A DNA stretch of 64,000 nucleotides from Bacillota bacterium (GTDB lineage Bacteria; Bacillota; Clostridia; Lachnospirales; Lachnospiraceae): positions 1-64,000 of the forward strand of contig JAQXUQ010000030.1 of NCBI GenBank assembly GCA_029224465.1. Direction: 5' to 3'. Shown one piece after another: positions 2,334 to 26,258 of this stretch (positions are counted from its first letter, which is position 1; the number at the start of each line of letters is the position of its first letter). Both the position numbers and the translations under genes were made by a program. The notes under the pieces were generated by a model. The model had not been told where the DNA came from. It saw only the letters and a list, made by a program, of their open reading frames with translations, and searched no databases.

Positions 2334-3401
2334 ATGAGATCGGAAAAACAGTCCACAGCGGCAGAAACAGCCAGATACCAGAGAATCACCAGAAAAGATG
2401 TCGCGCGCGAAGCGGGCGTAACGGAAACGATCGTATCATATGTTTTGAATAACAACCGTTATGTCAGCAGCGATAAAAGGCAGCGCGTACTCGCCGCAGT
2501 CAAGAAGCTCGGTTACAGACCGAATACTGCCGCAAGAGCTTTGAAAGGTAAGCGGCTGAATCACATTGTATTCATTGCGGATCAGATCGTCACGGAACAT
2601 TTTTCACTGCTTCTCAGCGAGATGGACGCAAAAGCCTATGATCTTGGATATATGATCTCTCTTTGCCAGAACCGCAATACCGAGGAGTTTGTGAGCAGTA
2701 TTATTTCCAGACAGTTTGACGGTGTCATTATCAGCTCGATCAGTTTTCCAAAGGATTATATCCGTGAAATTATCAATGCGGGTATTCCGGTTGTTTTGCT
2801 GGAAAACAGAGACTACTCGGACATAGAGAACGCCGGAAAAATTGACAACGGTCTGTACGACGGCGCACGGGATGTCATCCGGTATCTGGATTCTCTGGGC
2901 CGCAGGAACATTGTGTACATTGATCGTTTCAGCCGGAACAATCACTTCAGCGATATGAGCGACATGCGTTACCGCGGTTTTATAAATGAAATGAAGGCCA
3001 GGAAGATATCGGAGCAGCCACAGCGGCAGGTTCTCTCAGGCTGCCACAGCCCGGAGGAAATCGCTGAGAAGGTTAAGAAATATCTTACCTCGCATCCGGA
3101 AGTGGATGCCATCTTCGGAAGAAACGATCGGGTGGCCTGCATTGCGATGCATGCAGCGCAGGAGCTGGGAAATAGGATACCGGAAGACATTGCGGTTGTC
3201 GGGTTCGATAACTCACTGCTTGGTCAGTATTCGACACCCTCGATCACGAGCGTCGAAATTCCGAGAGATCTGATTGCCGGGACAGCAATCGACATGCTTC
3301 AGAAAATGATTGTAAATCATGAGATTCCTGACAAAGTCGTCTATCATACAAAGCTGATCTGCAGAGGAAGCACGGATATCAAAGCGGCTGAAACAGACTG
3401 A
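2334..3401 (+). CDS. LacI-family transcriptional regulator
   Basis: A 355-residue DNA-binding regulator. Residues about 17-75 form the LacI helix-turn-helix (TRKDVAREAGV, recognition helix with SYVLN) and the hinge helix AARALKGKRLN that enters the minor groove. The rest is a periplasmic-binding-protein-like sugar sensor ending in VGFDNSLLGQYSTPSITSV, typical of the family. The start is the ATG at 2334, preceded by AAAGGGG; a GTG 39 bases upstream is less likely. It precedes the ABC transporter operon in the same direction, with a promoter and two operator-like palindromes in between, so it probably represses that operon in response to its sugar. No terminator separates it other than the hairpin at 3496-3520. 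Confidence 0.93.
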   Translation: MRSEKQSTAAETARYQRITRKDVAREAGVTETIVSYVLNNNRYVSSDKRQRVLAAVKKLGYRPNTAARALKGKRLNHIVFIADQIVTEHFSLLLSEMDAKAYDLGYMISLCQNRNTEEFVSSIISRQFDGVIISSISFPKDYIREIINAGIPVVLLENRDYSDIENAGKIDNGLYDGARDVIRYLDSLGRRNIVYIDRFSRNNHFSDMSDMRYRGFINEMKARKISEQPQRQVLSGCHSPEEIAEKVKKYLTSHPEVDAIFGRNDRVACIAMHAAQELGNRIPEDIAVVGFDNSLLGQYSTPSITSVEIPRDLIAGTAIDMLQKMIVNHEIPDKVVYHTKLICRGSTDIKAAETD

Positions 3402-3430: not shown

Positions 3431-3491
3431 TTGACAGACAATACAGACAGTGATATTGTGATAATACGACAAATACATACGAGTGTATAAT
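3431..3491 (+). promoter_or_regulatory. Promoter region of the ABC/isomerase/kinase operon
   Basis: TTGACA at 3431-3436 with TATTGT at 3454-3459 (17-base spacer) is one candidate. A perfect TATAAT at 3486-3491 is a second -10 box, though its -35 is poor. The TATAAT overlaps the first operator-like palindrome at 3473-3488, a layout expected for a repressed promoter. Which start is used cannot be told from sequence. Confidence 0.6.
3473..3488 (+). promoter_or_regulatory. LacI-type operator O1
   Basis: ATACATACGAGTGTAT is an imperfect palindrome that differs from O2 (3534-3549) at only two positions. It overlaps the TATAAT box. It is most simply the binding site of the LacI-type regulator encoded just upstream. 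Confidence 0.7.
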
Positions 3492-3495
3492 ATTG

Positions 3496-3520
3496 AAAAG
3501 TAAGCATTTTGCTTACTTTT
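3496..3520 (+). terminator. Hairpin between the two operators
   Basis: AAAAGTAAGC and GCTTACTTTT form a perfect 10-bp stem with a 5-base loop, followed by ATTTAACC. It could terminate the LacI-family gene or act in the leader of the downstream operon. It is symmetrical enough to work on both strands, but the T tract is mostly inside the stem. Confidence 0.5.
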
Positions 3521-3533
3521 ATTTAACCTTGAA

Positions 3534-3549
3534 ATACACACGTGTGTAT
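3534..3549 (+). promoter_or_regulatory. LacI-type operator O2 (perfect palindrome)
   Basis: ATACACACGTGTGTAT is a perfect 16-bp palindrome, 61 bases from O1 start to start (about six helical turns) and 27 bases upstream of the transporter start codon. The spacing suits cooperative binding or a repression loop. Confidence 0.75.
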
Positions 3550-3576
3550 AAATGGGGATTTTTCAAGGAGGGAATT

Positions 3577-4935
3577 ATGCAAAAGCAAATCGTTCGTCAG
3601 TGGATCACCATGATAACGGCAGTTTGTCTTGCCGGCGGGATCACTGCCTGCGGCAGCGGCGGAAGTTCTGCGGCAGGCCAGAATGCATCGCAGACAAGCA
3701 AAGAGACACAAGCCGCTGCGACAGAAAACGCAGCGGATAATGCGGAGACGGAAACGGCAGCAGAACCCGTCACCATTAAGTTTGCCAATTATGCTCTGCT
3801 CGAGGATGCTTACACGGATTTCTGGAACGGTGTCAAGGAAGGCTTCGAAAAAGAACATCCGAATGTGACGATCGAGTGGGTAACCGCTCCTTATGGGGAG
3901 ATCACAAGCCAGGTCATCACAATGGCAGGCGCGGGGGATAAATGTGACATTGTTTTTGGCGAGAACACATGGATTTCTACATATGAAGACGCCGGCTACG
4001 CGGTACCTGTGTCGGATGTTCTCGGCGAAGACTTTGTTTCCGGCTTCCATGAAAACGCAGTGGAAAGCTGTTCTGTAGACGGCACAGCCTACGGTGTTCC
4101 GTTGTATGTTTCTCCGTTTATTCTTTACTACAACACGGACATTTTCAAGCAGGCAGGGATCGACAATCCCCCCGCAACCTATGATGAACTTCTTGCGGAC
4201 TGCGAAAAAATAAACGGCATGAAAACTGCTGACGGCAACGTAATTTATCCGTTCGGTCAGACAACCGCATCCGTGCCGATTTCCGGAACCAGCATTAATT
4301 CAATGATTTACAACTTCGGAGGTCAGGTTCTTGATGCTGACGGAAATCTTTCGATTGACAATGACGGTTTTCATCAGACTTTCGAAATGCTGAAGAAGCT
4401 GGATGACAAGGGCTATAATCCGCAGAACGCCAAGCTCAAGGATCTTAGAAACCTGTTTGCGCTCGGACAACTGGCCATGTACTACGACCAGAGCTGGGGA
4501 ATTGCCGGTGTGAAGGCGATTAATAAGGATGCGGAAGCTTTCACGAAATCCGCGGTTCCGTTAAAAGGCGGAAGCGGAGACGGCACTTCGATTTTAAGCG
4601 CCGCGGTCCTTATTCTCGCGGACAACGGTGACGCGAGAAAGGAAGCCACAAAGGAGCTGATCGAATACATTCTGCGGGACGAAGTCCTCGGCGATTATCT
4701 CGCGAATATCGTTCCGGCGTATCCGGCGATGAAGGCGATGTCCCAGCCGGACAATGCGGTGCTTACAGGAGCGGCTGATTCGATCAGCACGGCGGTTGCA
4801 TCTCCTTCGATTCCGCAGCTGAACGACCTGAATCTGGAGCTGGATACACTGGCACAGGCTGTAACTGTTTCAGATGAGGATGTTGACAAGGCGATGGAAG
4901 AGTTCCGCGCGTCGGCAAAAACATTGCTTCAGTAG
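3577..4935 (+). CDS. ABC sugar transporter, extracellular solute-binding lipoprotein
   Basis: The 452-residue lipoprotein is a family 1 (MalE/UgpB-like) sugar-binding protein that captures the sugar outside the cell and delivers it to the two permeases encoded next. The N-terminus has a positively charged, hydrophobic signal peptide and a lipobox (GITAC, Cys about 25), then a Ser/Ala/Thr/Glu-rich tether to about residue 65. The body contains the usual PSF segments such as YGVPLYVSPFILYYN. The ATG at 3577 was chosen over in-frame upstream starts because AAGGAGG lies just before it. The ATP-binding subunit is not encoded nearby, as is common for this class, which can share an MsmK-type ATPase. 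A strong hairpin follows the stop codon. Confidence 0.93.
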   Translation: MQKQIVRQWITMITAVCLAGGITACGSGGSSAAGQNASQTSKETQAAATENAADNAETETAAEPVTIKFANYALLEDAYTDFWNGVKEGFEKEHPNVTIEWVTAPYGEITSQVITMAGAGDKCDIVFGENTWISTYEDAGYAVPVSDVLGEDFVSGFHENAVESCSVDGTAYGVPLYVSPFILYYNTDIFKQAGIDNPPATYDELLADCEKINGMKTADGNVIYPFGQTTASVPISGTSINSMIYNFGGQVLDADGNLSIDNDGFHQTFEMLKKLDDKGYNPQNAKLKDLRNLFALGQLAMYYDQSWGIAGVKAINKDAEAFTKSAVPLKGGSGDGTSILSAAVLILADNGDARKEATKELIEYILRDEVLGDYLANIVPAYPAMKAMSQPDNAVLTGAADSISTAVASPSIPQLNDLNLELDTLAQAVTVSDEDVDKAMEEFRASAKTLLQ

Positions 4936-4957
4936 TGGAAACAGTTCGAAACGCAGA

Positions 4958-4988
4958 TGACAGGCCGGACGAAGAAGCCGGCCTGTCA
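4958..4988 (+). promoter_or_regulatory. Intercistronic hairpin after the binding-protein gene
   Basis: TGACAGGCCGG and CCGGCCTGTCA form a perfect 11-bp, GC-rich stem with a 9-base loop. No T run follows, so full termination is unlikely. It probably protects the 3' end of the binding-protein mRNA and so raises its level over the permeases. Confidence 0.7.
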
Positions 4989-5007
4989 TGCGCAGAGGGA
5001 GGCAGAT

Positions 5008-5943
5008 ATGAACGGGAGGACGAGGCGCGTCAGTCAGAGGTCGCAGATGACGCAGAAAAAGAGAGATCTTGGTTTTTCTCTTCTTCTGCTTCTTCCTGCG
5101 GTTGTAATCACAACCATATTCATTCTGGTTCCGGTCGTTGATTCGGTCCGTGAGAGTTTTCTGGATTACAAGATGAAAAACATCATCTCCGGACGACCGG
5201 GTGAATGGAATCATTTCGCAAACTATATCAAGCTTGCCGCGAATGCGAAGCTCGGGCCGGCGATTGTGCATACGTTTTTGTTTTGCCTCGTGGTCGTGCT
5301 GTTTCAGTTCGTATTCGGAATGGCACTCGCGCTGGTTCTGAATTCCGATATCAAAGGAGCAAGATTTCTGCGCTCGATCATGATGATGCCGTGGTGTGTC
5401 CCGACCGTGATATCCGCTCTTACGTGGATGTGGCTTTTTCAGCCGCAATACGGTTTTATGCGCTGGTTCACAGGCATTGTCACGGGAGGAAGAGTTATGG
5501 ATCTGGCGCTTTTAAATAATCCTTCAACGGCGCTTTCCGGTATCGCGATCGCGGCGCTTTGGAAACAGATACCATTGACGACATTGCTTTTGCTTTCAGG
5601 CCTGCAGAACGTGCCGGATTCGATTGAAGAAGCAGCCATTATGGACGGCGCGAATGCCTGGAACCGCTTCTTTAAAATTACGCTTCCTTATATGAAGAGC
5701 GTCATCAAGGTCGTTCTTTCGATGGCCATCATTGAAAACTTTAAACAGTTCCCTCTTATCTGGACGATGACCGGAGGCGGACCGGACAACAGTACGACTA
5801 CGCTCGCGATTTTAAGCTACAGAGAAGCCTTTGTTTCCAACAATCTGGGAAGCGGCGCCGCGGTTACCACAGTCTGGATGCTTCTGATGATCGTTGTAGT
5901 GATAGTTTTCAATAAGCTCATGGGCGATAATCAGACGACTTAA
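5008..5943 (+). CDS. ABC sugar transporter, permease (MalF type)
   Basis: A 311-residue inner-membrane permease with about six membrane segments, the first at residues about 25-45. The EAA loop that contacts the ATPase is present (EEAAIMDGANAWNRFFKITLP), marking it as a BPD_transp_1 protein of the MalF/UgpA type. The start at 5008 follows AGGGAGG by five bases; an ATG 51 bases upstream lies inside the preceding hairpin and is less likely. It pairs with the MalG-type subunit 14 bases downstream to form the transmembrane channel. Confidence 0.93.
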   Translation: MNGRTRRVSQRSQMTQKKRDLGFSLLLLLPAVVITTIFILVPVVDSVRESFLDYKMKNIISGRPGEWNHFANYIKLAANAKLGPAIVHTFLFCLVVVLFQFVFGMALALVLNSDIKGARFLRSIMMMPWCVPTVISALTWMWLFQPQYGFMRWFTGIVTGGRVMDLALLNNPSTALSGIAIAALWKQIPLTTLLLLSGLQNVPDSIEEAAIMDGANAWNRFFKITLPYMKSVIKVVLSMAIIENFKQFPLIWTMTGGGPDNSTTTLAILSYREAFVSNNLGSGAAVTTVWMLLMIVVVIVFNKLMGDNQTT

Positions 5944-5957
5944 GGGAGGAACAGGGA

Positions 5958-6797
5958 ATGAAAAAGAAAAGAACCGCTTCCAGGATCCTCAAATACCTTG
6001 TACTGGTCATCATCATGTTATTTCTGATGTTTCCGCTGTACTGGGTCATCCTTACCAGTTTCAAATCGAACATGGAAGCTTACATGTATCCGCCGACCAT
6101 GATTGCGAAGAACCCATCCGTGCAGTCCTATGTAAAGCTGTTCCGGCAGAATGCGGAGTTCTTCATATATTATCGGAATAACTTTATCGTCAGCGGCATT
6201 ACGGCGTTTGTTACAACCTTCTGTGCCATACTTGCGGGATACGCGCTTTCCAGATTCCACTACCACTGGAACAGTGTTGTTTCCGGCGTGCTGTATGCGA
6301 GCCAGATGTTTCCCGTTGTATCGAGAATGATTTCTCTGTACGGGCTTCTTGGCAAAGTACATCTCCTCAATACACTCACAGGGTTGATTCTTGCCCTGAT
6401 TGCCGCAATGGTTCCGTTTACAACGATGCTGATGAGCAGCTTTTTTGACAGCATTCCGGTGGACATTGAAGAAGCCGCCAAAATTGACGGCGCCTCCAGA
6501 GTACAGACGATGACGAGTGTTGTGCTTCCTCTCGTAAAGCCCGGCCTTGTCAGCGTACTTATTTACGCGTTCCTGATGACCTGGGATGATTATCTTCACT
6601 GCGCAACTCTGATTCAGAGTGATTCGCTGCGCACCTTGTCTACGGGCGTCGCACTCCGGTATCTGGGAGAACTCTCGTATGACTGGTCGCTTGTCAATAC
6701 CATTTCCGTTGTCGCAATGCTGCCGATGATCCTGATTTTCTTCTTCTTCCAGAAGTATATGATCAAAGGACTTGTGGCCGGTGCCGTGAAGGGGTAA
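5958..6797 (+). CDS. ABC sugar transporter, permease (MalG type)
   Basis: A 279-residue permease, the second half of the sugar channel. It has an N-terminal membrane segment after KKKRTASRILKY, about six segments in all, and the EAA loop (EEAAKIDGASRVQTMTSVVLP). The C-terminus ends GLVAGAVKG, the usual end of MalG/UgpE-type subunits. GGGAGG lies nine bases before the ATG. It sits 14 bases after the MalF-type gene and 20 bases before the aldolase, in one operon. Confidence 0.94.
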   Translation: MKKKRTASRILKYLVLVIIMLFLMFPLYWVILTSFKSNMEAYMYPPTMIAKNPSVQSYVKLFRQNAEFFIYYRNNFIVSGITAFVTTFCAILAGYALSRFHYHWNSVVSGVLYASQMFPVVSRMISLYGLLGKVHLLNTLTGLILALIAAMVPFTTMLMSSFFDSIPVDIEEAAKIDGASRVQTMTSVVLPLVKPGLVSVLIYAFLMTWDDYLHCATLIQSDSLRTLSTGVALRYLGELSYDWSLVNTISVVAMLPMILIFFFFQKYMIKGLVAGAVKG

Positions 6798-6817
6798 GAA
6801 TTAAGAAAGGACAGAAA

Positions 6818-7672
6818 ATGCTGACTACAAATTTAGCAAATCTTCAAAAAGCTTCGCGGGAAGGTTACGCAATCCCTGCGATCAATACGCAGGGCGGCAA
6901 CTACGACATTATTATGGCGTGCTGCAAGGCGGCGCAGGAGATGAACAGCCCGATGATTCTGGCGCACTATGTTTCCACAGGGGCTTTTTCGGGGAATGAC
7001 TTCTTTGTGAATGTCGCGAAGTGGTGCGCAAACAAAGTGGAAGTACCGTGTTCCATTCATCTGGACCACGGCGCCGATTTTGCCACCTGCATGGAAGCTC
7101 TTAAGCTTGGATTTACCAGTGTGATGATTGACGGTTCGATGCTTCCGGTCAAAGAAAACGCGGACGTTACGAATCAAGTGATCAAAGTCGCGAAATGTTT
7201 TGGCGTACCGGTTGAAGCGGAGATCGGTGAACTGCAGCGGCTGGACAACGGCGTGCCGCAGGAGAACAAAAACATCGCGGACCCGGAAATGGTCCGGGAA
7301 TTTCTTGACCTGTGCCGGCCTGATACGCTTGCTATCGGCATCGGCAACGCGCACGGCTATTATCACGGAAAGCCGGATATTCATCTTGACGTTCTGGAAA
7401 ACGTGCGGAAGTTTACGGATATTCCGCTTGTTCTGCACGGCTGCACCGGCATGGACGAGTCTGTTATCAAAGATGCAATCCGTCTTGGCGTAGCAAAAAT
7501 CAATTTCGGTACGGAAATCCGTTATAAATATGTGCAGCACTATCAGGAGGCACTTCAAAACCTCGATCACAAAGGGCACAGCTGGCTTCTGAGCCAGTAT
7601 GCCTCCAATGCTCTTTGCGAGGACATCAAGAAAATCATAGAGCTTTCCGGTTCTGCCGGAAAAGCACGGTAG
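6818..7672 (+). CDS. Class II ketose-bisphosphate aldolase family protein
   Basis: The 284-residue protein belongs to the zinc-dependent class II aldolases (FbaA/GatY/KbaY/IolJ), which split a ketose 1,6-bisphosphate into DHAP and a three-carbon aldehyde. Zinc ligand segments are visible: HLDHG (81-85), NAHG (177-180) and LHG (206-208). The motif after the last histidine, normally GGSG, reads GCTG here, and the aldehyde side of the pocket may therefore differ. With an isomerase and a PFK-type kinase in the same operon it would be the cleavage step. Fructose, tagatose or a C6-modified ketose 1-phosphate are all possible substrates. Confidence 0.88.
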   Translation: MLTTNLANLQKASREGYAIPAINTQGGNYDIIMACCKAAQEMNSPMILAHYVSTGAFSGNDFFVNVAKWCANKVEVPCSIHLDHGADFATCMEALKLGFTSVMIDGSMLPVKENADVTNQVIKVAKCFGVPVEAEIGELQRLDNGVPQENKNIADPEMVREFLDLCRPDTLAIGIGNAHGYYHGKPDIHLDVLENVRKFTDIPLVLHGCTGMDESVIKDAIRLGVAKINFGTEIRYKYVQHYQEALQNLDHKGHSWLLSQYASNALCEDIKKIIELSGSAGKAR

Positions 7673-7684
7673 AAGGGATAATAT

Positions 7685-8413
7685 ATGCAGCACGGCAGCA
7701 TCATGGCAATCGTTATGGCGGCGGCATTTGCCGGAAGTTTCATTCAGGCGGTCGGCGGGTTCGGGTATGCGATTGTGGTGATGTCTGTTTTGCCGCTGTT
7801 TCTCAAGGTGCAGACTGCATCCGTGATCGAAGTGTTTACTTCCTCCGTCATGGTCTGCGTCATAGCTCTGCGTTACCGGAAAAACATCCGATGGAAGCTG
7901 ATCATTCTGCCGGCGCTTGCAAATGCGGTTTTCGGATATATCGGCATCCGTATTCAGTCGGCAGCCCCGGAGCAGCTGCTCCGGCGGATTTTGGGAAGCT
8001 GTCTTATCCTGCTTTCGCTCTGGATGATGAGAAAACATGGCGGGAGAAAGGTCCCGAACCGGCCGGTGGCAGGACTTGCCGCGGGAATGATGAGCGGCAT
8101 TATGGGAGGCATGATGAGCATCGGGGGACCGCCGATGGTGCTTTACTTCCTTGGAGTTACAGATTCCAAGGAGGAGTATACGGCGACGCTGCAGATGTAC
8201 TTTTTCCTTTCAACGCTGTATCTTTTCTTCACCCACCTGCTTATGGGACACATGACAAAAGAAGTGTGGACTTTCAGCCTTTTCGCGCTGCTTGGCCTTG
8301 GCGCCGGAACGGCAGCAGGCATGGCGGTTTTCCAAAGGATCAGACAGGAAACGTTTCGCAAGGTTGTTTACGGATTCATGATCTTTGCGGGCATCTATAT
8401 GTTATTTACATAA
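7685..8413 (+). CDS. TauE/SafE-family anion (sulfite/organosulfonate) exporter
   Basis: A 242-residue membrane protein with about seven or eight hydrophobic segments in two repeats. The motifs AVGGFGYA near residue 22 and IGGPPMVLYF near 140 are the two signatures of the TauE/SafE (DUF81) family. Known members export sulfite, sulfoacetate or related small sulfonates. It starts 12 bases after the aldolase stop and is followed 21 bases later by the SIS gene, so it is a full operon member. An exporter inside a sugar-uptake operon suggests that an anionic end product is thrown out of the cell. Confidence 0.85.
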   Translation: MQHGSIMAIVMAAAFAGSFIQAVGGFGYAIVVMSVLPLFLKVQTASVIEVFTSSVMVCVIALRYRKNIRWKLIILPALANAVFGYIGIRIQSAAPEQLLRRILGSCLILLSLWMMRKHGGRKVPNRPVAGLAAGMMSGIMGGMMSIGGPPMVLYFLGVTDSKEEYTATLQMYFFLSTLYLFFTHLLMGHMTKEVWTFSLFALLGLGAGTAAGMAVFQRIRQETFRKVVYGFMIFAGIYMLFT

Positions 8414-8434
8414 ATTCGAAAGAGAGACAGAACA

Positions 8435-9490
8435 ATGGATCGTACAATGAAAAACAGCACACTGACCTATCATGAAATCTACGGTCAGCCGGATTCTTTT
8501 CAGGCAATATTGGATACTCTTCCGGAGATAGAGGCAACGCTGGATGAGGTATTTGCTGAGAAATATGATCAGCTGATCTTTACAGGCTGCGGTACGAGTC
8601 TGTATCTTGCGCAGACCTCCGCTTATCTCTGGAGGGCTATGAACAGAACGCCGGCAGAGGCAGTGCCTTGCAGCGAGCTGTTGTTTTTCCCGGAAAACTA
8701 TATCAAGGGGAAGCGGACACTCGTTCTGCCGATCACGAGAAAGAGCTACACGACGGAGGTCAGGAAAGCGATTGACCGTGTACACGAGCTGCCGGGGGTA
8801 ACGAGCCTTGCGATCACCTGCGACCAAGACAGCCGCCTCTATAATGAACATTATATTCTGGCACCCGATACAGCGGAAGACAGCGTCATCATGACAAGAA
8901 GCTTTACGGCAATGATTTTCCTCGCGCAGATTCTGAGCATGCATGTTTCGGGGCATGAGGAATGGATCAAAGAGATGGCCGGTTACCGGCAGGAAGCCGG
9001 GAAGCTGCTGAAAGAGTGCGACGCGCTCGCCGAAAAGATCGTCCGTGAAAATCCGGATCTCAATCTTTTCATCACGCTCGGGCAGGGGGCGTACTACGGC
9101 ATCAGCAATGAATGCATGAATAAGATGAAGGAGATGGGCATCTCCAACAGCGAGGCATATTATTCGATGGAGTACCGGCATGGTCCGATGAGTCTGGTGG
9201 ATGAAAATACGCTGCTGATTCTGCTTTCGAACGAAAAAACCGAGAAAACCGATGAGGCGCTGATGGAGCAGATGCAGAGCTTTTCCGGTATAACCTGCGG
9301 CATCGGTCCGCATACGGACTATATGAAAGGCCTTCGCTATCATCTGGCGACGAATCCTTCTTTCAGCGAATACCAGGCTGCAGCGATGATGGGATTCATC
9401 GGGCAGTTCCTCGGTTACTATATTTCTCTGAAAAAGGGTATCAACGCCGATACGCCGCGGCATCTGACGCAGGCGATCGTGCTGAAGTGA
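8435..9490 (+). CDS. SIS-domain sugar isomerase/deglycase-like protein
   Basis: A 351-residue cytosolic protein with two SIS (sugar isomerase) domains, like the isomerase half of GlmS without the glutaminase domain. Visible motifs are FTGCGTSLYLA near residue 50, LPITRKSYTTEV near 105 and the GlmS-like YRHGPMSLVD near 250. Relatives include FrlB (fructoselysine-6-phosphate deglycase) and AgaS (galactosamine-6-phosphate deaminase/isomerase). In this operon it could remove an amino group from a sugar phosphate or isomerise it. Its role alongside a second, unrelated isomerase is unclear. Confidence 0.85.
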   Translation: MDRTMKNSTLTYHEIYGQPDSFQAILDTLPEIEATLDEVFAEKYDQLIFTGCGTSLYLAQTSAYLWRAMNRTPAEAVPCSELLFFPENYIKGKRTLVLPITRKSYTTEVRKAIDRVHELPGVTSLAITCDQDSRLYNEHYILAPDTAEDSVIMTRSFTAMIFLAQILSMHVSGHEEWIKEMAGYRQEAGKLLKECDALAEKIVRENPDLNLFITLGQGAYYGISNECMNKMKEMGISNSEAYYSMEYRHGPMSLVDENTLLILLSNEKTEKTDEALMEQMQSFSGITCGIGPHTDYMKGLRYHLATNPSFSEYQAAAMMGFIGQFLGYYISLKKGINADTPRHLTQAIVLK

Positions 9491-9510
9491 CCGAGTTTAG
9501 GGGGAAGAAG

Positions 9511-10860
9511 ATGATGGAAAACAAACTTCATGTTGGCGTTATTACATCCTGCTCCGGCAGGTGGCCGAGGGAGCTGCCGCAGAAAAGACTGAAAATCTAC
9601 GGCGACTGGTGCAGAGAAAACCTGAAAGAAGCAGACGTACATGTCTTTGACCGGATTGTCGGATCGCAGGAAGAGTTTGCACAGGCAGTGGAATATTTCA
9701 GAGGCTGCGGGACAGATCTTGTTATCCAGGTGATCGGCGCTTTTACCGGTGATGATATCTGCTGCGGACTCTATGAGCAGCTTCGGGTTCCGGTTATTCT
9801 CTGGGCGCCGGAAGAGGACGAATGGAATCGTGATGAAAGAATGTACGCGAACGGGCTGTGCTGCGCGGCAATGAACGGAGCGAGCCTGCGCCGCCTGCAG
9901 GCGCCGCACTATATCGTGTACGGCAACTTTGATGACATAAAAGCCACAGATAAAATCCGGAGGATTGTCCGCGCTTATACGGCAGTATGTGCTCTCCGGG
10001 GAACAACTTTCGGCCTGTTCGGCTACCGGCCGACCGCCTTCTATAACTGCGCGTCCGATGAAGTGCTCCTGCGGAAGACGTTTGGAATCCGTCTTGAAGA
10101 GACGGATCTTAAAGTCCTGTTTGATCAGATGAAAGAGATACCGGAAGAGGAGGTGTCGAAGGAGGAACAACATGTCATGTCCCTCTGGGACACGTCGCTC
10201 ATGCCGCCCGGACATCTTGAGAATCACTGCCGGCTGTATCTGGCGCTGAAAAAACTATATCCTTCGCTCGGCTACGCCTATTCCACGATTAAATGCTGGC
10301 CGGAAATGGGAAACGCGAAGACACAGCCGTGCGCCGTGCTCGGCCGCCTTGCGGATGAGGGAATTCATATCACCTGCGAAGGAGATATCGATGCGGGTAT
10401 TACCGCGTATCTCGAACATGTTTTGACGGAAAAGGTAACCTTCATAGCGGACCTGATCAACCTTTTGGAAGAGGAGAACACAGTGACGTTCTGGCACTGC
10501 GGAAACGGCGCACCGAGTCTGCATAATCAGGAAGACGGTGTCGTGCTCGCGGATCATCCGCTGGCCGGTCAGGGTTCGGCATTCTGGTGTTCCCTGAAGA
10601 GCGGAGCCGTGACGGCAGCACGCTTTTCGAACATTGACGGACAGTACCGCCTGTTTCTGCTTCCGGGTACGGCCGTGCCGACAAAGAGGAATACGAGAGG
10701 ATGCATGGTCAATGTCAAAACAAATACGCCGGTAACCACTCTCGTAGACCATATCGAAGAGACAGGCATGAGTCACCACTACGCGCTTGTCTGGTCTGAT
10801 ATTGCAGAGGATCTTCGAATGATTGCGAAGATTCTCGGCATTCCCGTAGTAGAACTCTAG
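9511..10860 (+). CDS. L-fucose/L-arabinose isomerase family protein
   Basis: A 449-residue protein of the FucI/AraA fold, enzymes that interconvert free aldoses and ketoses with a divalent metal. Typical segments are TDLVIQVIGAFTGDD in the N-terminal domain, GLFGYRPTAFYNC in the middle, and CEGDIDAGITAYL plus FWHCGNGAP in the catalytic half. The ATG at 9511 follows AGGGGG by six bases; a GTG overlapping the upstream stop is less likely. FucI-type enzymes act on unphosphorylated sugars, which fits import by an ABC transporter without phosphorylation. The exact sugar is unknown. Confidence 0.87.
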   Translation: MMENKLHVGVITSCSGRWPRELPQKRLKIYGDWCRENLKEADVHVFDRIVGSQEEFAQAVEYFRGCGTDLVIQVIGAFTGDDICCGLYEQLRVPVILWAPEEDEWNRDERMYANGLCCAAMNGASLRRLQAPHYIVYGNFDDIKATDKIRRIVRAYTAVCALRGTTFGLFGYRPTAFYNCASDEVLLRKTFGIRLEETDLKVLFDQMKEIPEEEVSKEEQHVMSLWDTSLMPPGHLENHCRLYLALKKLYPSLGYAYSTIKCWPEMGNAKTQPCAVLGRLADEGIHITCEGDIDAGITAYLEHVLTEKVTFIADLINLLEEENTVTFWHCGNGAPSLHNQEDGVVLADHPLAGQGSAFWCSLKSGAVTAARFSNIDGQYRLFLLPGTAVPTKRNTRGCMVNVKTNTPVTTLVDHIEETGMSHHYALVWSDIAEDLRMIAKILGIPVVEL

Positions 10861-10870
10861 GAGGAAACTC

Positions 10871-12034
10871 GTGAAAGAACAGAATCTGCTGCTGGTCCAT
10901 GGCGGCGCGCCGACCGCGGTCATGAACGCTTCGGTCTACGGCGTTATCACGGAAGCGCTGCAGAACCCGGAGATTGCACACGTATATGCTGCCATGGGAG
11001 GTTCGGGCGCGATTCTTAAAGAACGGTTCCGCGACCTTTTGCAGATACCGGAGGAAAAACTGCGGCTGCTTCCCCGGACGCCGGCATCGGCTATCGGCAG
11101 CAGCCGTGATCAGCTGGAAACGGAAGACTACAAAATGATCGCGCAGATCCTCCGGAAATATCAGATCCGGTATGTTCTCTTTAACGGCGGCAATGGGAGC
11201 ATGGATACCTGCGGGAAAATTTACCATGTCTGCCGGGACGAAGGACTGGAGATCTGTGTCGGAGGCATTCCCAAAACCATTGACAATGATCTTGCGGTTA
11301 CGGATCACGCGCCGGGATATCCTAGTGCCGCACGCTACATTGCGTCTACAACAGCCAATATCGCGGAAGATGTACATGCGCTTCCGATCCATGTAAGCGT
11401 TGTCGAGGCGATGGGCAGAAATGCCGGCTGGATTACAGCGGCTTCGGTGCTTGCAAGGAATAAAGGGTACGGACCGGATCTTGTCTATCTTCCGGAACGG
11501 CCGTTCCATGAAGAAGAGTTTCTGGAAGATGTGCAGAGATGCATTGACCGGAACCGCTGTGCGGTTGTTGTCTGCAGCGAAGGCCTTCGCGGAGCTGACG
11601 GAGAGCCGATTGTAAAACCGGTCTATCAGACCGGCAGAAGCGTATATTACGGTGATGTCAGCGCGCATCTTGCGGAGCTTGTCATCCGCAGGCTGGGTTA
11701 TAAAGCAAGAAGCGAAAAGCCCGGCATTGCGGGAAGAGCAGGCATCGAGTACCAGTCCCGCGTGGACCGGGAGGAGGCCATTCTCGCCGGACAGGAGGCT
11801 GTGCGCGCAGTCGTGCAGGGGCATACCGGCTTTATGATCGGTTTTCGCCGTGCGCCGGGAGATCCGTATCATGTTGATCCGATCCGTATTCCGATTGAAG
11901 ATGTTATGATGTATGAAAACAAAGTGCCGGAGCGATTTATAAACGCAAGAGGCAACGGTATGAACGAAGCGTTCTGCAGGTGGCTTTCACCACTTCTGGG
12001 AGATCCCTTCCAGCCGTTTTTCCGTTTTGACTGA
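10871..12034 (+). CDS. Phosphofructokinase-family kinase with unusual active-site motifs
   Basis: A 387-residue member of the PFK superfamily that would phosphorylate C1 of a ketose. It starts at GTG with AGGAGG six bases upstream. The ATP/PPi site normally reading GGDGS is GGNGS (106-110), so the metal-binding Asp is replaced by Asn. The catalytic loop is PKTIDND (134-140), with the Lys seen in PPi-dependent and group II enzymes rather than the Gly of classical ATP enzymes. EAMGRNAGW near 177 is conserved. The phosphoryl donor cannot be assigned from these mixed features. It lies between the isomerase and the mutarotase, as expected for the activation step before the aldolase. Confidence 0.88.
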   Translation: MKEQNLLLVHGGAPTAVMNASVYGVITEALQNPEIAHVYAAMGGSGAILKERFRDLLQIPEEKLRLLPRTPASAIGSSRDQLETEDYKMIAQILRKYQIRYVLFNGGNGSMDTCGKIYHVCRDEGLEICVGGIPKTIDNDLAVTDHAPGYPSAARYIASTTANIAEDVHALPIHVSVVEAMGRNAGWITAASVLARNKGYGPDLVYLPERPFHEEEFLEDVQRCIDRNRCAVVVCSEGLRGADGEPIVKPVYQTGRSVYYGDVSAHLAELVIRRLGYKARSEKPGIAGRAGIEYQSRVDREEAILAGQEAVRAVVQGHTGFMIGFRRAPGDPYHVDPIRIPIEDVMMYENKVPERFINARGNGMNEAFCRWLSPLLGDPFQPFFRFD

Positions 12035-12060
12035 AAGGACAAAAGCACGAGGAAGAATCC

Positions 12061-12987
12061 ATGCTGGAAATACTTTATAACGATTACATTGCGGCAGCAG
12101 TCAATACAATGGGTGCGGAGCTTTGGAGCCTGAAACGAAGAGAAGATGACAGAGAGTTTCTCTGGCAAGGCGACAGGGAAATCTGGCCGAGGCGCGCGCC
12201 GCTCCTTTTTCCCATTACGGGGGCTTTGAAAGACGGTAAAATCCGGATAGCCGGAAAAGAGCGGCAGATACCAATGCACGGCTTCGCGCGCGACTATGAA
12301 CATGAAGTAATAAGCGCGGATGCGGAGCGCCTGCGCCTCCGCTTTACGGGAAATGAGACAACGGAAGAAATCTATCCATATCATTACGTACTGGAGATCA
12401 CATATCAGCTTGCGGGGAGAAGACTGGACCAGACAGCCTGCGTCAGAAATACCGGAAGTGAAACCATGTACTTCTCGATTGGCTTTCACACAGGATTTTT
12501 CTGTCCGCCGGGCAGGAGGGGGAGCGCTCCGGACTGCATACTGCGGTTTGCCGATGCGGAGAATCCTCTGTGTTATGACAAAACAAAAGACGGCCTTTTA
12601 ACAGGCACGAAAAGCCCGCTGCCGGCAGCGGGAAACAGAATCCCGGCTGCCGGAGGAATCTTCCCTGACACGCTGATTCTGGATCATCCGAAGTCTTCCT
12701 ACATGGAGCTTTTCAATACTGTGACCCGGGAGTATGTACGTGTCCATATGAAAGATTTCCCGTATTTTCTCTTGTGGTCAAACCGCGCGGATGTGCCGTT
12801 CGTCTGCATCGAACCGTGGTACGGGCTGCCGGACTCTGTCAATGCGGATGGCTGCATGGAAAAGAAACCGGCGATCCTTGCACTCGGACCCGGAGAGACG
12901 TTTGCCTGCACACAGGGAATTGAGATTTCGCCTCCGGGGCAGGCAGAGAATTTGCACCGGGAGAGTTTATCCGGAGCCGTAAGGTAA
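12061..12987 (+). CDS. Aldose 1-epimerase (mutarotase) family protein
   Basis: A 308-residue mutarotase-like protein (LacX/YihR-type branch) that would interconvert alpha and beta anomers of the imported sugar. Visible motifs: LLFPITGAL near residue 60, MHGFARD near 84, and FSIGFHTGFFCP near 145, the histidines being typical catalytic positions. GAGGAAG precedes the ATG. The last 13 codons lie inside a 37-base tandem repeat, so the C-terminal tail (AENLHRESLSGAVR) may be a recent addition. Confidence 0.83.
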   Translation: MLEILYNDYIAAAVNTMGAELWSLKRREDDREFLWQGDREIWPRRAPLLFPITGALKDGKIRIAGKERQIPMHGFARDYEHEVISADAERLRLRFTGNETTEEIYPYHYVLEITYQLAGRRLDQTACVRNTGSETMYFSIGFHTGFFCPPGRRGSAPDCILRFADAENPLCYDKTKDGLLTGTKSPLPAAGNRIPAAGGIFPDTLILDHPKSSYMELFNTVTREYVRVHMKDFPYFLLWSNRADVPFVCIEPWYGLPDSVNADGCMEKKPAILALGPGETFACTQGIEISPPGQAENLHRESLSGAVR

Positions 12988-13045
12988 TTTGCACCGGGAG
13001 TGTTTTTCTGGGGGCATAAAGTAAACTGCACCGGGAGTGTTTTGC
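12949..13045 (+). repeat. 37-base tandem repeat, three copies
   Basis: The core TTGCACCGGGAG or CTGCACCGGGAG recurs with GCACC at 12954, 12991 and 13028, exactly 37 bases apart. Copies two and three share GCACCGGGAGTGTTTT. The first copy is inside the mutarotase gene, the second spans its stop, and the third ends just before the ribosome binding site of the next gene. Confidence 0.85.
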
Positions 13046-13087
13046 AAAAGACGCACAATAGCAGCAGGAAAAAAGAGGGAATACTGT

Positions 13088-14578
13088 ATGAAACATCTGG
13101 ATTTTGAATATGGGGCCGGCACGATGGGGGCGGAGCTGCCGGACTGGACCGACGTATTTATCCCGGGAGTAACCGTGCCGGATCCGCCTTATATTCCGGA
13201 GGATCAGCTTGAAAGAGCATACCGTGAAAGTCTGGATCACCCGATCGGCATGGCTCCCGTAAAGGAATTGGTGCATCAGGGGAGCCGCGTTGTTTTTGTG
13301 ATTCCGGACCGCGTCAAGGGCGGAGAGCAGACGACAAGTCACAGAAAACTTGCCTGCAGGTATATCCTGCAGGATTTATATGAAGCAGGCGTGCAGAAAA
13401 AAGATATACAATTCATCATTTCAAACGGCCTGCATCCAAGAAGCACGGAACAGGACGCGAAGGCGATCTTCGGACCGGAGCTTTTTGACGAGTTCTGGCA
13501 TACAGGACAGATCACAAGTCATGATTCCGAAGATCCGGACAATATGATTGACCTCGGCAAAACAAAGCGCGGTGATCCTGTCTGGATGAACAAAACCGTT
13601 TATGATGCGGATCTTGCGATCCTGATCGGGCACGTTCAGGGGAATCCTTACGGCGGGTACAGCGGCGGCTACAAGCACAGCGCCACGGGTATTACGAACT
13701 GGAGATGTATTGCGAGCCATCATGTACCGGAGGTTATGCACCGGCCGGATTTCACGCCTGTCAACAACGGTTCCCTGATGCGCCATAAATTTGATGAAAT
13801 CTCCATGCATATGGAAGAGAAAATGGGGCATCCGTTCTTCTGCTGCGATGCGGTGCTGGATTCCAGAAGCAGACAGATCGCGATCTATTCCGGGTACGCA
13901 AAGGAAATGATGCCGGAAAGCTGGAAGCTTGCGGATCGGAGGACGTATGTACACTGGGCGGAAAAGAAGTACGATGTCCTTGTCTTCGGCATGCCGCAGA
14001 AGTTCCATTATGGCGACGGCATGGGAACTAATCCGATCATGATGATGCAGGCCCTGTCCGCGCAGGTGCTGCGCTATAAACGGGTGATGAGTGATCACTG
14101 CGTCATTATCTGCTCTTCTTTATGCAACGGCTTCTTTAATGACAGCCGCTGGCCGTATCTGCGGGAACTGTATGACATCTTCCAGCACGATCAGATGAAC
14201 CAGCTGCCAGATATGAACCGCCTTGGCGAGTATTTTGCCACAAACGAAGAGTATATCCGTAAATACCGCTTTGCCAATGCGTTCCATCCGTTCCATGGGT
14301 TCTCGATGATGAGCTGCGGACACATCGCGGAAATGAATACAAGTGCGATTTATATCGTTGGCGCGCAGGACCCGGGATACGCGAGGGGGATGGGACTCAA
14401 GACGAGAGCCACTTTTGAGGAGGCGCTCGCGGATGCGATGAAGAAATTTGTCGGACCTTGCCCGAATATTCTTGCGCTGCCGGGAACATTTAAGACGGCG
14501 GCGGTGCATCTGTGTATGAAGGATCCCGGGATGGATTGTATGGATGCGTATGGGAGGAGCCCGGAGGAGAAAATATAA
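13088..14578 (+). CDS. LarA-like (DUF2088) nickel-pincer racemase/epimerase family protein
   Basis: A 496-residue protein related to lactate racemase LarA, which uses a nickel-pincer nucleotide to exchange hydride at C2 of 2-hydroxy acids. Candidate catalytic residues line up with LarA: His116 in NGLHP, His182 in IGHVQ, and Lys196-His197 in GGYSGGYKH. The family also acts on substrates other than lactate, including sugar acids. The ATG at 13088 follows GAGGG. No larB, larC or larE cofactor genes are in the window, so the cofactor would have to be made from genes elsewhere. It ends the operon, 12 bases before a convergent gene, with no clear terminator. Confidence 0.8.
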   Translation: MKHLDFEYGAGTMGAELPDWTDVFIPGVTVPDPPYIPEDQLERAYRESLDHPIGMAPVKELVHQGSRVVFVIPDRVKGGEQTTSHRKLACRYILQDLYEAGVQKKDIQFIISNGLHPRSTEQDAKAIFGPELFDEFWHTGQITSHDSEDPDNMIDLGKTKRGDPVWMNKTVYDADLAILIGHVQGNPYGGYSGGYKHSATGITNWRCIASHHVPEVMHRPDFTPVNNGSLMRHKFDEISMHMEEKMGHPFFCCDAVLDSRSRQIAIYSGYAKEMMPESWKLADRRTYVHWAEKKYDVLVFGMPQKFHYGDGMGTNPIMMMQALSAQVLRYKRVMSDHCVIICSSLCNGFFNDSRWPYLRELYDIFQHDQMNQLPDMNRLGEYFATNEEYIRKYRFANAFHPFHGFSMMSCGHIAEMNTSAIYIVGAQDPGYARGMGLKTRATFEEALADAMKKFVGPCPNILALPGTFKTAAVHLCMKDPGMDCMDAYGRSPEEKI

Positions 14579-14589
14579 GGCGGGAAGTT

Positions 14590-16404
14590 TTAAACTTCTC
14601 TGCTTAAATATCGCCACATCGTTGTACGGCTGATGCCAAGCTGTCGCGCAGCCGCGCTCTGATTACCATCATTCTGATCCAGCACAGTTTTAATGATGTC
14701 CTTTGTGATCTGATCCAGCGTCCGGTTCAAATCCACGGACCGGATACTGTCAGAAGAGGACCTGCGGCTTTCCTCTCTGGCTGCCCAAAGCTGTTTTTCC
14801 TGATCAATCGCCTTTTTGACCGAGACGGCGTTGATATATGAGCCATTTGTCGTAATACATAATTCATTGATGACGCGGCGCAGCTGTGTAAAGTTGCCCG
14901 GCCAGTCATACTGCAGCATCAGATCAATTGCGTTGCTGTTGAATCCCACGATCTGCCTGCCGATTTCCAGATTGAGAGAAGCCAGATAAAGACTGCAGAG
15001 CGCCTCGAGTTTATCCAGCTGCTGCCGCAGCGGCGGAAGTGTGATATTCACACAGGAAAGTGTGTCAGATAGCTCGTGAATGATGGAATTTCGCGTCCCC
15101 AAGGAAGTGTCCGTGCAGGAAAACACCAGCCGGTTCCTTTCTGTCAGTCTGGTGTCAATGATGATCGAGAGAAGCTGCTGCCCCTGCTCCCCGGTAAGAG
15201 CATCCGGATTTTCAATGTAAATTGTATTGCCGCTGTCATTGAATGGAGAATTGTAGTGATTTGTAAGAAACTCCCAGCTCTTCTCATTCAGCAGCCTGCA
15301 GTTGATGATGACCATCGGATTGCGGCTGCGATCGCTTTTTATATAAAGAAGCCGCGCAATCTGTTCTTTACCTGTTCCCTCTTCTCCGTAAATCATCACA
15401 GGGAAATTGCTGCTGCCCACCTGTTCAAGCTCATCATTCACATGACTCAGATTGATGGAGCCGCTGATGCCATAAAAGCTTTTGAAATACTGCTGCTGCG
15501 CTTCGCTGCGGTCCGTAAACTGAATTCCGTATTTGCTGGAAATCATCGGAACCTTTGACTGTTCCGCGTGAAAAATGTAAAAATTCCCGGTGCCGGAATT
15601 ATACAGTCTTCCATTGACGGAGTACATCGTCTGACCGACCAGGTGAAATGCCTTATAATCTTTATTTGGAAGGACATTAGGAATGCTCTGTCGCAGGAAC
15701 TGTGTCAGTTCTTCGGAGATGGAATGGTCATGCGAAGAGAAAACGACCTTGTGACTTTCATCAAAAATAATTGTATGTTCCTGCATGCTGCGCATGGCAC
15801 TTTCGTACAGGAAATTCTTCTCTCTGATGACGGAATATGTCGAATAGAGAGTAACTGCCTGCTGGAGCGCATTGTGGATGCTTTCGTCTCCGGAAGTCAG
15901 AAGAACTGCGTTCATACCAAGCCGCTTGGCGCACTGCGTTGTGATCATGTCTCCGAGAACCATTGAAATGCCCTGTTCCATCAGAGATTTCAAAACAGGC
16001 TCAACTTCACTCGAATCATGAATGGTTACAGTCTCGATATTGTACTGCAGAATATTCCCGATCAGCTGTGTATTTACGGTTATATTCGGGAAACCTACGA
16101 TCGCGTACCGGCTGGGATAATTATCAATCAGCTTCATGGTCCGCAGAATATCATAGCTTGAAAGAGAAATTTCGACAATCGGAAGATCTGTGACACGCCG
16201 GATATAATTTACTGTGCCGCCGCGGGAAAGAATGACGTTGTAATGCTCCCGCTCATGCCGGCGCACGATTTCCGCTCCCCTCTCAAGGTTTCCGATGTAA
16301 ACATCAAGATGAATCTGCGGATATTTCTCCGCGGCGCGAAGCATCGCATTTTTCATGGAATCATATGGTGCGATTCCTAATATTCGGATAACCGCATCAT
16401 TCAT
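14590..16404 (-). CDS. PrpR-N domain regulator with degenerate sigma-54 activator domain
   Basis: A 604-residue regulator. Residues about 1-190 match the PrpR N-terminal ligand-sensing domain (SRGGTVNYIRR at 60-70). A linker follows, then an NtrC-type AAA+ domain with Walker A GEEGTGKE (340-347) and a Fis-type helix-turn-helix at the end (QSAAARQLGISRTTMWRYL). The GAFTGA loop that contacts sigma-54 is not visible, and the Walker B region reads NTIYIENPD instead of the usual LFLDE. It probably acts without sigma-54. It diverges from the four-carbon acid sugar operon; the shared 284-base gap holds repeated TGTTTCA motifs that may be its binding sites. Confidence 0.88.
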   Translation of the reverse strand: MNDAVIRILGIAPYDSMKNAMLRAAEKYPQIHLDVYIGNLERGAEIVRRHEREHYNVILSRGGTVNYIRRVTDLPIVEISLSSYDILRTMKLIDNYPSRYAIVGFPNITVNTQLIGNILQYNIETVTIHDSSEVEPVLKSLMEQGISMVLGDMITTQCAKRLGMNAVLLTSGDESIHNALQQAVTLYSTYSVIREKNFLYESAMRSMQEHTIIFDESHKVVFSSHDHSISEELTQFLRQSIPNVLPNKDYKAFHLVGQTMYSVNGRLYNSGTGNFYIFHAEQSKVPMISSKYGIQFTDRSEAQQQYFKSFYGISGSINLSHVNDELEQVGSSNFPVMIYGEEGTGKEQIARLLYIKSDRSRNPMVIINCRLLNEKSWEFLTNHYNSPFNDSGNTIYIENPDALTGEQGQQLLSIIIDTRLTERNRLVFSCTDTSLGTRNSIIHELSDTLSCVNITLPPLRQQLDKLEALCSLYLASLNLEIGRQIVGFNSNAIDLMLQYDWPGNFTQLRRVINELCITTNGSYINAVSVKKAIDQEKQLWAAREESRRSSSDSIRSVDLNRTLDQITKDIIKTVLDQNDGNQSAAARQLGISRTTMWRYLSREV

Positions 16405-16647: not shown

Positions 16648-16688
16648 ATATAGAACATTTGGATAGTGGTCTGAGAAAAGGTAACAAG

Positions 16689-26208: not shown

Positions 26209-26258
26209 ATTTCTAAAGATTAACCATGTGCAAAAGACGTACAGAACCGAGGCAGGTA

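Follow-up and report, generated by a model that had tools for sequence, protein, structure and literature searches.

Candidate two-locus pathway for sugars with a sulfur anion at C6 in gut Clostridia

The closest described relative of the system discussed here is sulfo-EMP2, a form of Embden-Meyerhof-Parnas (EMP)-type sulfoglycolysis found in Firmicutes, whose isomerase (SqvD), kinase (SqiK) and aldolase (SqiA) belong to families PF02952, PF00365 and PF01116, respectively, according to a review (PMC9594981). The same review assigns the E. coli sulfo-EMP (yih) enzymes YihS, YihV and YihT to other families (PF07221, PF00294 and PF01791). We have analysed an operon in a 64,000-nucleotide stretch of DNA from a bacterium of the Lachnospiraceae (assembly GCA_029224465.1, contig JAQXUQ010000030.1, positions 1 to 64,000); the whole of this stretch is called the window. 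The operon carries the same three Pfam families as sulfo-EMP2, and shares with the yih trio the reaction logic of isomerase, C1 kinase and aldolase but not the enzyme families. In our judgement the chances are evenly balanced that it forms, with a second locus, a catabolic module that handles hexoses and N-acetylhexosamines whose C6 bears a sulfur anion, an O-sulfate ester being the likeliest kind. Such 6-O-sulfated sugars would most likely come from mucin or from keratan or chondroitin sulfate.

The operon lies on one strand, with all genes in frame, and comprises the following features:

2337..3401, + strand: LacI-family regulator (Pfam LacI/Peripla_BP_3)
3431..3459, + strand: promoter-like site upstream of the operon (TTGACA-17-TATTGT, 10/12 consensus matches; consensus match only)
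3577..4935 (3577 being the start taken), + strand: ABC solute-binding protein of CUT1 type (Pfam SBP_bac_1)
4957..5943, + strand: ABC permease A (Pfam BPD_transp_1)
5958..6797, + strand: ABC permease B (Pfam BPD_transp_1)
6818..7672, + strand: class II aldolase (F_bP_aldolase PF01116, E 7.5e-76), proposed ketose 1-phosphate 6-sulfate aldolase
7685..8413, + strand: predicted TauE/SafE-type exporter (PF01925, E 1.3e-32)
8435..9490, + strand: SIS-domain protein (SIS, E 5.7e-18), GlmD/GlmS-like, proposed hexosamine 6-sulfate deaminase
9514..10860, + strand: aldose-ketose isomerase (Fucose_iso_C PF02952, E 2.8e-11), AraA/FucI fold, distant relative of SqvD/SftI
10871..12034, + strand: PFK-family kinase (PF00365, E 4.8e-47), proposed C1 kinase of a 6-anionic ketose
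12061..12987, + strand: aldose 1-epimerase, or mutarotase (Aldose_epim PF01263, E 5.6e-20)
13088..14578, + strand: LarA-like protein (Lar_N, E 8.6e-39)

From the solute-binding protein to the LarA-like protein the successive intergenic gaps are 21, 14, 20, 12, 21, 23, 10, 26 and 100 nt, the longest preceding the LarA-like gene. A close relative of the operon occurs in locus L032 (uncultured Lachnospiraceae RUG304), where the aldolase, SIS protein and isomerase are 97%, 96% and 90% identical; because the genes past LarA in L032 differ from those of the window, the unit probably ends at this gene. Pfam confirms each gene that a first-pass annotation of this DNA had placed in one operon (importer, mutarotase, isomerase, PFK-type kinase, aldolase and TauE/SafE protein), and a scan of the operon proteins found no hexokinase or phosphotransferase system (PTS) gene among them, as that annotation had also stated.

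The first-pass annotation noted that its FucI-type isomerase and PFK-type kinase set the operon apart from the classical yih genes; the idea that this pairing is new finds no support, since sulfo-EMP2 already has exactly these families (PMC9594981). Its proposed order of isomerase, C1 kinase and aldolase gains support. The resemblance to sulfo-EMP2 does not extend to orthology. Two sulfo-EMP2-type clusters served for comparison: L245, from the class of Pelosinus, has isomerase, kinase and aldolase genes as direct neighbours, together with GH31, DUF4867 and a YihU-type dehydrogenase, and shares mutarotase and TauE matches with the window operon; in L246 the trio is accompanied by a YihU-type dehydrogenase. 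Identity of the window enzymes to those of L245 and L246 is 32 and 36% for the kinase and 37 and 35% for the aldolase, and the window isomerase, at about 25% identity to both of theirs, does not class with the SqvD type. Its top NCBIfam match is the sulfoquinovose isomerase family SftI/SqvD (NF048012), at 212 bits versus 462 and 481 for the two clusters; all three fall below the cut-off of 700, which is therefore undecisive.

One midpoint-rooted FastTree was built for each of the other two families. In the kinase tree, restricted to proteins longer than 330 aa (24 of the 28 window-type kinases), these 24 fall into one clade (support 0.975) that also takes in 12 of the 14 kinases belonging to loci of a triosephosphate isomerase (TIM)-like gene described below, while both SqiK-type kinases fall outside it, among eight canonical ones, as do the remaining two TIM-locus kinases. 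In the aldolase tree both SqiA-type proteins likewise stand outside a clade, of weak support (0.58), that unites 47 window-type sequences and canon_L267, which is of the same type and mislabelled. Among the solved structures matched by the window aldolase, PDB 8q57-8q5a, which we believe to be SqiA enzymes, score below several fructose-bisphosphate aldolases. Filing the operon directly under sulfo-EMP2 was thus rejected on identities, NF048012 scores and both trees; judged by its sequences, it works like sulfo-EMP2 at most and is not a member by orthology. In the broad sense of EMP-type sulfoglycolysis, the isomerase, C1 kinase and aldolase families are present and sulfur is indicated by context only.

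A divergent sulfo-EMP2, leading from sulfoquinovose through sulfofructose and sulfofructose 1-phosphate to dihydroxyacetone phosphate (DHAP) and sulfolactaldehyde, would account for the three families held in common with SqvD, SqiK and SqiA, for the NCBIfam model nearest to the isomerase, and for a TauE and a mutarotase of the kind also seen in L245; a SqiA-clade aldolase in Lucifera, discussed below, speaks for it as well. The lack of orthology of the trio tells against it. So does the absence from the operon genes of a GH31 sulfoquinovosidase, DUF4867 and a YihU-type or sulfolactaldehyde reductase (elsewhere in the genome no search for them was made), in agreement with the first-pass annotation for the glycosidase and the reductase; L245 has all three. 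It also leaves the SIS, NagA and NagB paralogs and a sulfatase unexplained, and we consider it unlikely.

The isomerase was modelled with AlphaFold2 (mean pLDDT 91.1, pTM 0.89). The model lies nearest to L-arabinose isomerases (TMq 0.84, first hit), followed by D-arabinose isomerase and FucI (0.77-0.82), so that the label "FucI-type" fits the Pfam domain, which is that of FucI, but not the fold ranking. Further isomerase candidates near the core genes, AGE/YihS-family and PMI-like proteins, were seen in L064, L068 (u31), L060, L072 (u28) and L198 (2982-4070); family support was tested for those of L068, L060 and L198 only.

The system is larger than the window shows. Searches with TIM, NagA, PGI and kinase sequences each matched contig C1 of the window's own genome (G000), where locus L152 contains, in order, an SsuC-, SsuB- and SsuA-like importer, a sensor kinase, NagB-, NagA- and PGI-like proteins, a second kinase, a second class II aldolase, a second LarA and a TIM-like protein. 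The second kinase and second LarA are 55% and 82% identical to their counterparts in the operon. The SsuA-like protein scores just below its cut-off (152.4 vs 163.5), which that of genome G253 passes at 165.3. For the NagB-like protein a Pfam scan gave no family and a PF01182 search also missed it; NCBIfam TIGR00502 matches it below cut-off (107.6 vs 236.9). Much of this set recurs in other genomes examined (L153-L162, L198 and L199).

The two loci occur together. In a sample of 397 genomes of the family, the isomerase ortholog (at least 48% identity) was found in nine and the TIM-like gene in 31; all nine isomerase genomes also carry the TIM-like gene, versus 22 of the 388 others (Fisher p 3.3e-11, a guide only, as the genomes are related by descent). 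From these 22, all but G272 and G373 were fetched, giving 20 further TIM-like loci (L201-L220) with LarA in 20, kinase in 14, NagB-like in 12, NagA-like in 11, a second aldolase in 11, SsuA-like in 10, TauE2 in nine, PGI-like in three and a window-type aldolase in two. No other gene accompanies the TIM-like gene as regularly as LarA does. By eye, this pair adjoins a dehydrogenase complex (E1/E2/E3-like) in L207, and a split transketolase-like pair with an AraD-like protein in L218; it may also serve other sulfur C3 or C4 routes.

The first-pass annotation had suggested looking for the gene set in other gut Clostridia, and a scan of genome contigs did find it there. The scan gave 58 loci, of which 47 (L032-L078) hold an isomerase ortholog (43-90% identity); the counts that follow cover the fetched stretches at fixed identity limits, and contig ends cut many stretches short, just 26 being 20 kb or more in length. 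The association of isomerase and aldolase is beyond chance, because the aldolase ortholog is present in 43 of the 47. The solute-binding protein (at least 45% identity) and the SIS protein each occur in 28, the kinase in 18, LarA in 17, NagA-like protein and sulfatase in 10 each, a fused PTS IIC-IID in nine, TauE and the TIM-like protein in eight each, TauE2 in five, and maturase and PGI-like protein in three each. Of 41 genomes searched (that of the window plus the genomes behind 40 of the 47 named loci), 40 have a kinase match at E <= 1e-60. Amino-sugar enzymes are encoded in 29/47 loci. The genera with such loci include the gut Clostridia Hungatella, Enterocloster and Gemmiger. In L061 (15737-16929) and L063 (5255-6198) the kinase is made up of two separate open frames.

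Like gene content, conservation and co-occurrence, the replacement of phosphate-site motifs was observed directly, and it provides the strongest evidence for a C6 (and C3) anion other than phosphate. Four paralogs (TIM, PGI, NagA and NagB) were compared with ordinary family copies from one set of eight genomes. The counts include genes fetched twice (e.g. L064/L156 and L076/L154); sequences shorter than 150 aa and the NagB frame of L185, a misreading, were dropped, and the TIM-like copy of L034 is truncated. What we take to be the phosphate-binding and catalytic positions of TIM, PGI, NagA, NagB, GlmS, LarA and PFK underlie the comparison. The TIM-like proteins have YGGG in 18/18 readable copies where ordinary TIM has YGGS (10/10), and GGxALTRF in 17/18 (one ALTQF) where GGxGGA[SA]L is usual (8/10); the active-site residues are unchanged wherever a copy extends that far (Lys 18/18, His 19/19, Glu 18/18). 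In the PGI-like proteins SKSGTT (8/8 ordinary copies) has given way to AKNF[EA]T (6/6). The NagA-like proteins have QH in place of HR in 16/17 (ordinary copies: QH 0/12, HR 8/12) and DGRH in 15/17 (ordinary 1/12). All six NagB-like proteins lack ATG[ST][ST]P, present in eight of 11 ordinary ones, and have CPVGPVG; FR[DN]WHRA is found in all five copies reaching that far.

In the operon itself, the SIS protein reads TRKSYTTE in 30/30 copies, as against SRSGETTE and SRTGNTTE in two solved relatives, the only comparison made for this family. The kinase has PIH in 26/27 and EKPG in 25/27, and both canonical and SqiK-type kinases differ at these positions, which in E. coli PFK presumably face the 6-phosphate. 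All 24 kinases of the tree set have GGNG, as does one of two SqiK-type kinases, where eight of eight canonical relatives have GGND; this presumably points to ATP over pyrophosphate. The aldolase motif LHGCTGM is invariant (45/45). As far as these alignments tell, several sugar-phosphate enzyme families have lost the usual phosphate motif in the same pathway and have gained or kept basic residues, from which we surmise an anion other than phosphate at C6 (and C3). The claim of the first-pass annotation that C6 bears a non-phosphate anion is thereby strengthened from five families (SIS, NagA, NagB, PGI and TIM) and the changed kinase.

The same motifs bear on whether this is an ordinary hexosamine or tagatose pathway of Aga/Nag type, working on sugar phosphates. 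The deacetylase, deaminase, kinase and class II aldolase are of the same families as NagA, NagB, AgaS, PFK and KbaY, and a fused mannose-family PTS IIC-IID protein is encoded in nine of the 47 loci. The Aga/Nag enzymes, however, have the usual phosphate motifs, which are gone from the TIM, PGI, NagA and NagB paralogs here, mostly kept in the ordinary copies, and likewise gone from the SIS protein relative to its solved relatives, provided that the position roles are as we assume. The operon, moreover, has no PTS or hexokinase step. We accordingly give this reading the least credence of all.

The fused IIC-IID gene, present in L056 (7359-9071) and eight other loci, lies beside the isomerase in several of them, a place held by TauE in some others, and its product may be a transporter that has lost phosphorylation. 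This gene prompted the idea of a PTS-fed pathway, which was rejected: in L069 a NagA-like gene overlaps the start of IIC-IID and the isomerase follows directly, so that its neighbours leave no room for IIA or IIB (other loci were not fully checked). The gap to the isomerase, the only side examined, is about 80-140 nt in L050, L053, L055 and L074; in L056 the 0.9 kb on one side of IIC-IID holds only a minus-strand frame.

The link to sulfur drawn by the first-pass annotation is supported by the match of the isomerase to NF048012 and by a sulfatase, maturase, TauE or SsuA-like importer in part of the loci; one of the first three occurs in 18/47. The sulfatase (10/47 loci) has the motif CSPAR, shows no signal peptide on inspection by eye, and sits among importer and aldolase genes; the one tested, from L044, has GlcNAc-6-sulfatase 5g2v as its best solved match (201.6 bits; GlcNAc, N-acetylglucosamine). 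Anaerobic sulfatase maturases above the TIGR03942 cut-off were found in L070, L162 and L195. The last of these, on contig C6 of the window's own genome (2495-8371), encodes the maturase, one further frame, a sulfatase (CVPSR) and a GH3 enzyme. A 1803-aa GH84 enzyme with F5/8 type C domains (L194, 9457-14868, minus strand) is encoded some 3 kb away from the G110 locus. Sulfatase and TauE do not exclude each other, as L064, L068 and L070 carry both.

Sulfoquinovose, which the first-pass annotation put forward as a guess at the substrate, accounts for the hexose side only; the enzymes are not sulfo-EMP2 orthologs, and amino sugars are suggested as substrates too because SIS, NagA and NagB paralogs are present. 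Keratan sulfate and mucin contain 6-sulfated hexose together with 6-sulfated N-acetylhexosamine. That annotation was right about the chemistry in outline and probably wrong about the named substrate. A search of the open-access literature for triose or ketose sulfates gave a review and otherwise unrelated matches; glycerate 3-sulfate was reportedly formed from glucose 6-sulfate in work of 1971.

Bacteroides also draws on host sulfated glycans, the likely source here, and its sulfatases take the sulfate off during glycan breakdown (PMC10154612). Some of our operons encode an S1-type sulfatase as well; unlike this sulfatase-first use of mucin and glycosaminoglycan sugars, the window pathway is proposed to keep the sulfate on through the aldolase step. 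Were desulfation to come first, the enzymes would act on plain C6-OH sugars, the C1 kinase giving a ketose 1-phosphate and the aldolase DHAP and glyceraldehyde. Changed phosphate motifs fit a free hydroxyl, no hexokinase would be needed, and the cytosolic sulfatase that 10 of the 47 related operons contain is in keeping with this order. The new motifs, however, bring or keep basic residues that suit an anion (Lys in SIS, Arg in 17/18 TIM-like copies, Lys in PGI-like), the window operon has TauE and no sulfatase, and one would hardly expect a TIM-like enzyme devoted to unsubstituted trioses. Such a route appears to us distinctly improbable.

The LarA-like protein has a Lar_N domain and keeps the His/Lys/His pattern, presumably catalytic (22 of 24 aligned copies were readable at the motifs), which places it in the LarA superfamily; its top NCBIfam model is NF052592 (LarAH14/15/16), at 168 bits vs a cut-off of 740. 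LarAH15 is described as gluconate 2-epimerase (PMC11770544), and LarE is counted among the LarA cofactor genes (PMC11796402). Relatives have LarC next to the locus (G099) or both LarC and LarE (G110). The LarA-like protein perhaps racemises a C3 hydroxyacid. A rival reading has a carboxylate at C6, where hexuronates and N-acetylhexosaminuronates would yield DHAP and tartronate semialdehyde, the TIM-like enzyme would form hydroxypyruvate and LarA would handle glycerate: the scheme is chemically coherent and offers a natural substrate for 2-hydroxyacid racemases of this type, some LarA-family enzymes being reported to act on glycerate (PMC11770544). It leaves the sulfatase, maturase, TauE and SsuA-like importers unexplained, and we hold it to be very improbable. 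A second, distinct LarA-like protein (DUF2088-type by eye) is encoded at 26226-27578 of the window, with TctA/TctC-like transporter and PdxA-like genes nearby and a DUF1537-type kinase (16659-17957) in the same neighbourhood; this set resembles a separate hydroxyacid pathway.

We infer every substrate and reaction of the preferred O-sulfate scheme, and its division of work between the loci, from the genes described. The ABC importer would take in the sulfated sugar. Mutarotase and the AraA/FucI-fold isomerase would convert an aldose 6-sulfate to the ketose 6-sulfate, which the SIS protein could also form by deamination of a hexosamine 6-sulfate. The PFK-family enzyme would then add phosphate at C1, and the class II aldolase would release DHAP for further use together with a C3 aldehyde still bearing sulfate (or sulfonate) on C3. 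The second locus would supply a deacetylase, a NagB-type deaminase, a PGI-type isomerase, a second kinase and a second aldolase; the TIM-like enzyme would interconvert the C3 aldose and C3 ketose, and TauE would export the leftover C3 compound or its sulfur. As in sulfo-EMP2, a C6 sulfur anion would lead to DHAP and a C3 sulfur product; the proposed system differs in its non-ortholog enzymes, its SIS protein and the NagA, NagB, PGI and TIM paralogs of the second locus. That the window locus is a galacto/tagatose branch and the second locus a gluco/fructose branch is a guess from the AraA-like fold and the SIS protein. We put somewhat below even the chance of a complete parallel glycolysis for O-sulfated sugars, in which the sulfate ester replaces the C6 phosphate from deacetylation to aldol cleavage and a TIM paralog isomerises triose sulfate; it is possible that this would be a categorically new core within EMP-type sulfoglycolysis.

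Several observations weigh against the O-sulfate scheme. The changed motifs, read from sequence, make phosphate unlikely without establishing sulfate; they could also suit a carboxylate or a sugar with no anion at all, and the loop-8 site of TIM, taken alone, varies elsewhere, two of 10 ordinary copies having GR rather than GG. The fetched stretch lacks an amino-sugar enzyme in 18 of 47 loci and lacks sulfatase, maturase and TauE in 29, and the sulfatase inside 10 operons could mean that sulfate is removed first. The TIM/LarA/PGI/PFK row of Lucifera (L062) holds, besides a window-type aldolase, one placed with SqiA in the tree (support 1.0), a point in favour of a C-sulfonate in that case; as no amino-sugar genes were found in the stretch read of Pelosinus, Lucifera and Desulfosporosinus either, there may be a sulfonate version of the pathway. 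Neither locus has a recognisable reductase or dehydrogenase that would act on the C3 product. The scheme does not account for LarA, and LarE gave no match over cut-off in the window's genome, which is 95.9% complete (LarB and LarC were not searched there).

The operon is probably regulated by the LacI-family protein, whose orthologs are 47-67% identical in many relatives with the same core and 97% in L032. The promoter-like site TTGACA-17-TATTGT begins at 3431, where the finding of the first-pass annotation also begins; sites of this grade number 18 in the region vs a mean of 10.4 in shuffles, so that the site is weak alone. Convergent with the operon lies a PrpR-type sigma-54 regulator (14590-16404, minus strand), probably part of the next gene set.

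According to a review (PMC11186840), Bifidobacterium bifidum frees GlcNAc-6-sulfate from mucin with a sulfoglycosidase and does not assimilate it. If our reading is correct, the module would be a missing route for GlcNAc-6-sulfate and galactose 6-sulfate freed from mucin and keratan sulfate, and could explain which organisms eat the sulfated sugars released from mucus: gut Clostridia such as those named above would use sulfated host sugars without prior desulfation. At least five sugar-phosphate enzyme families would have been recoded together for another anion, with a specificity testable enzyme by enzyme, and a small sulfated or sulfonated C3 compound would enter the gut sulfur cycle.

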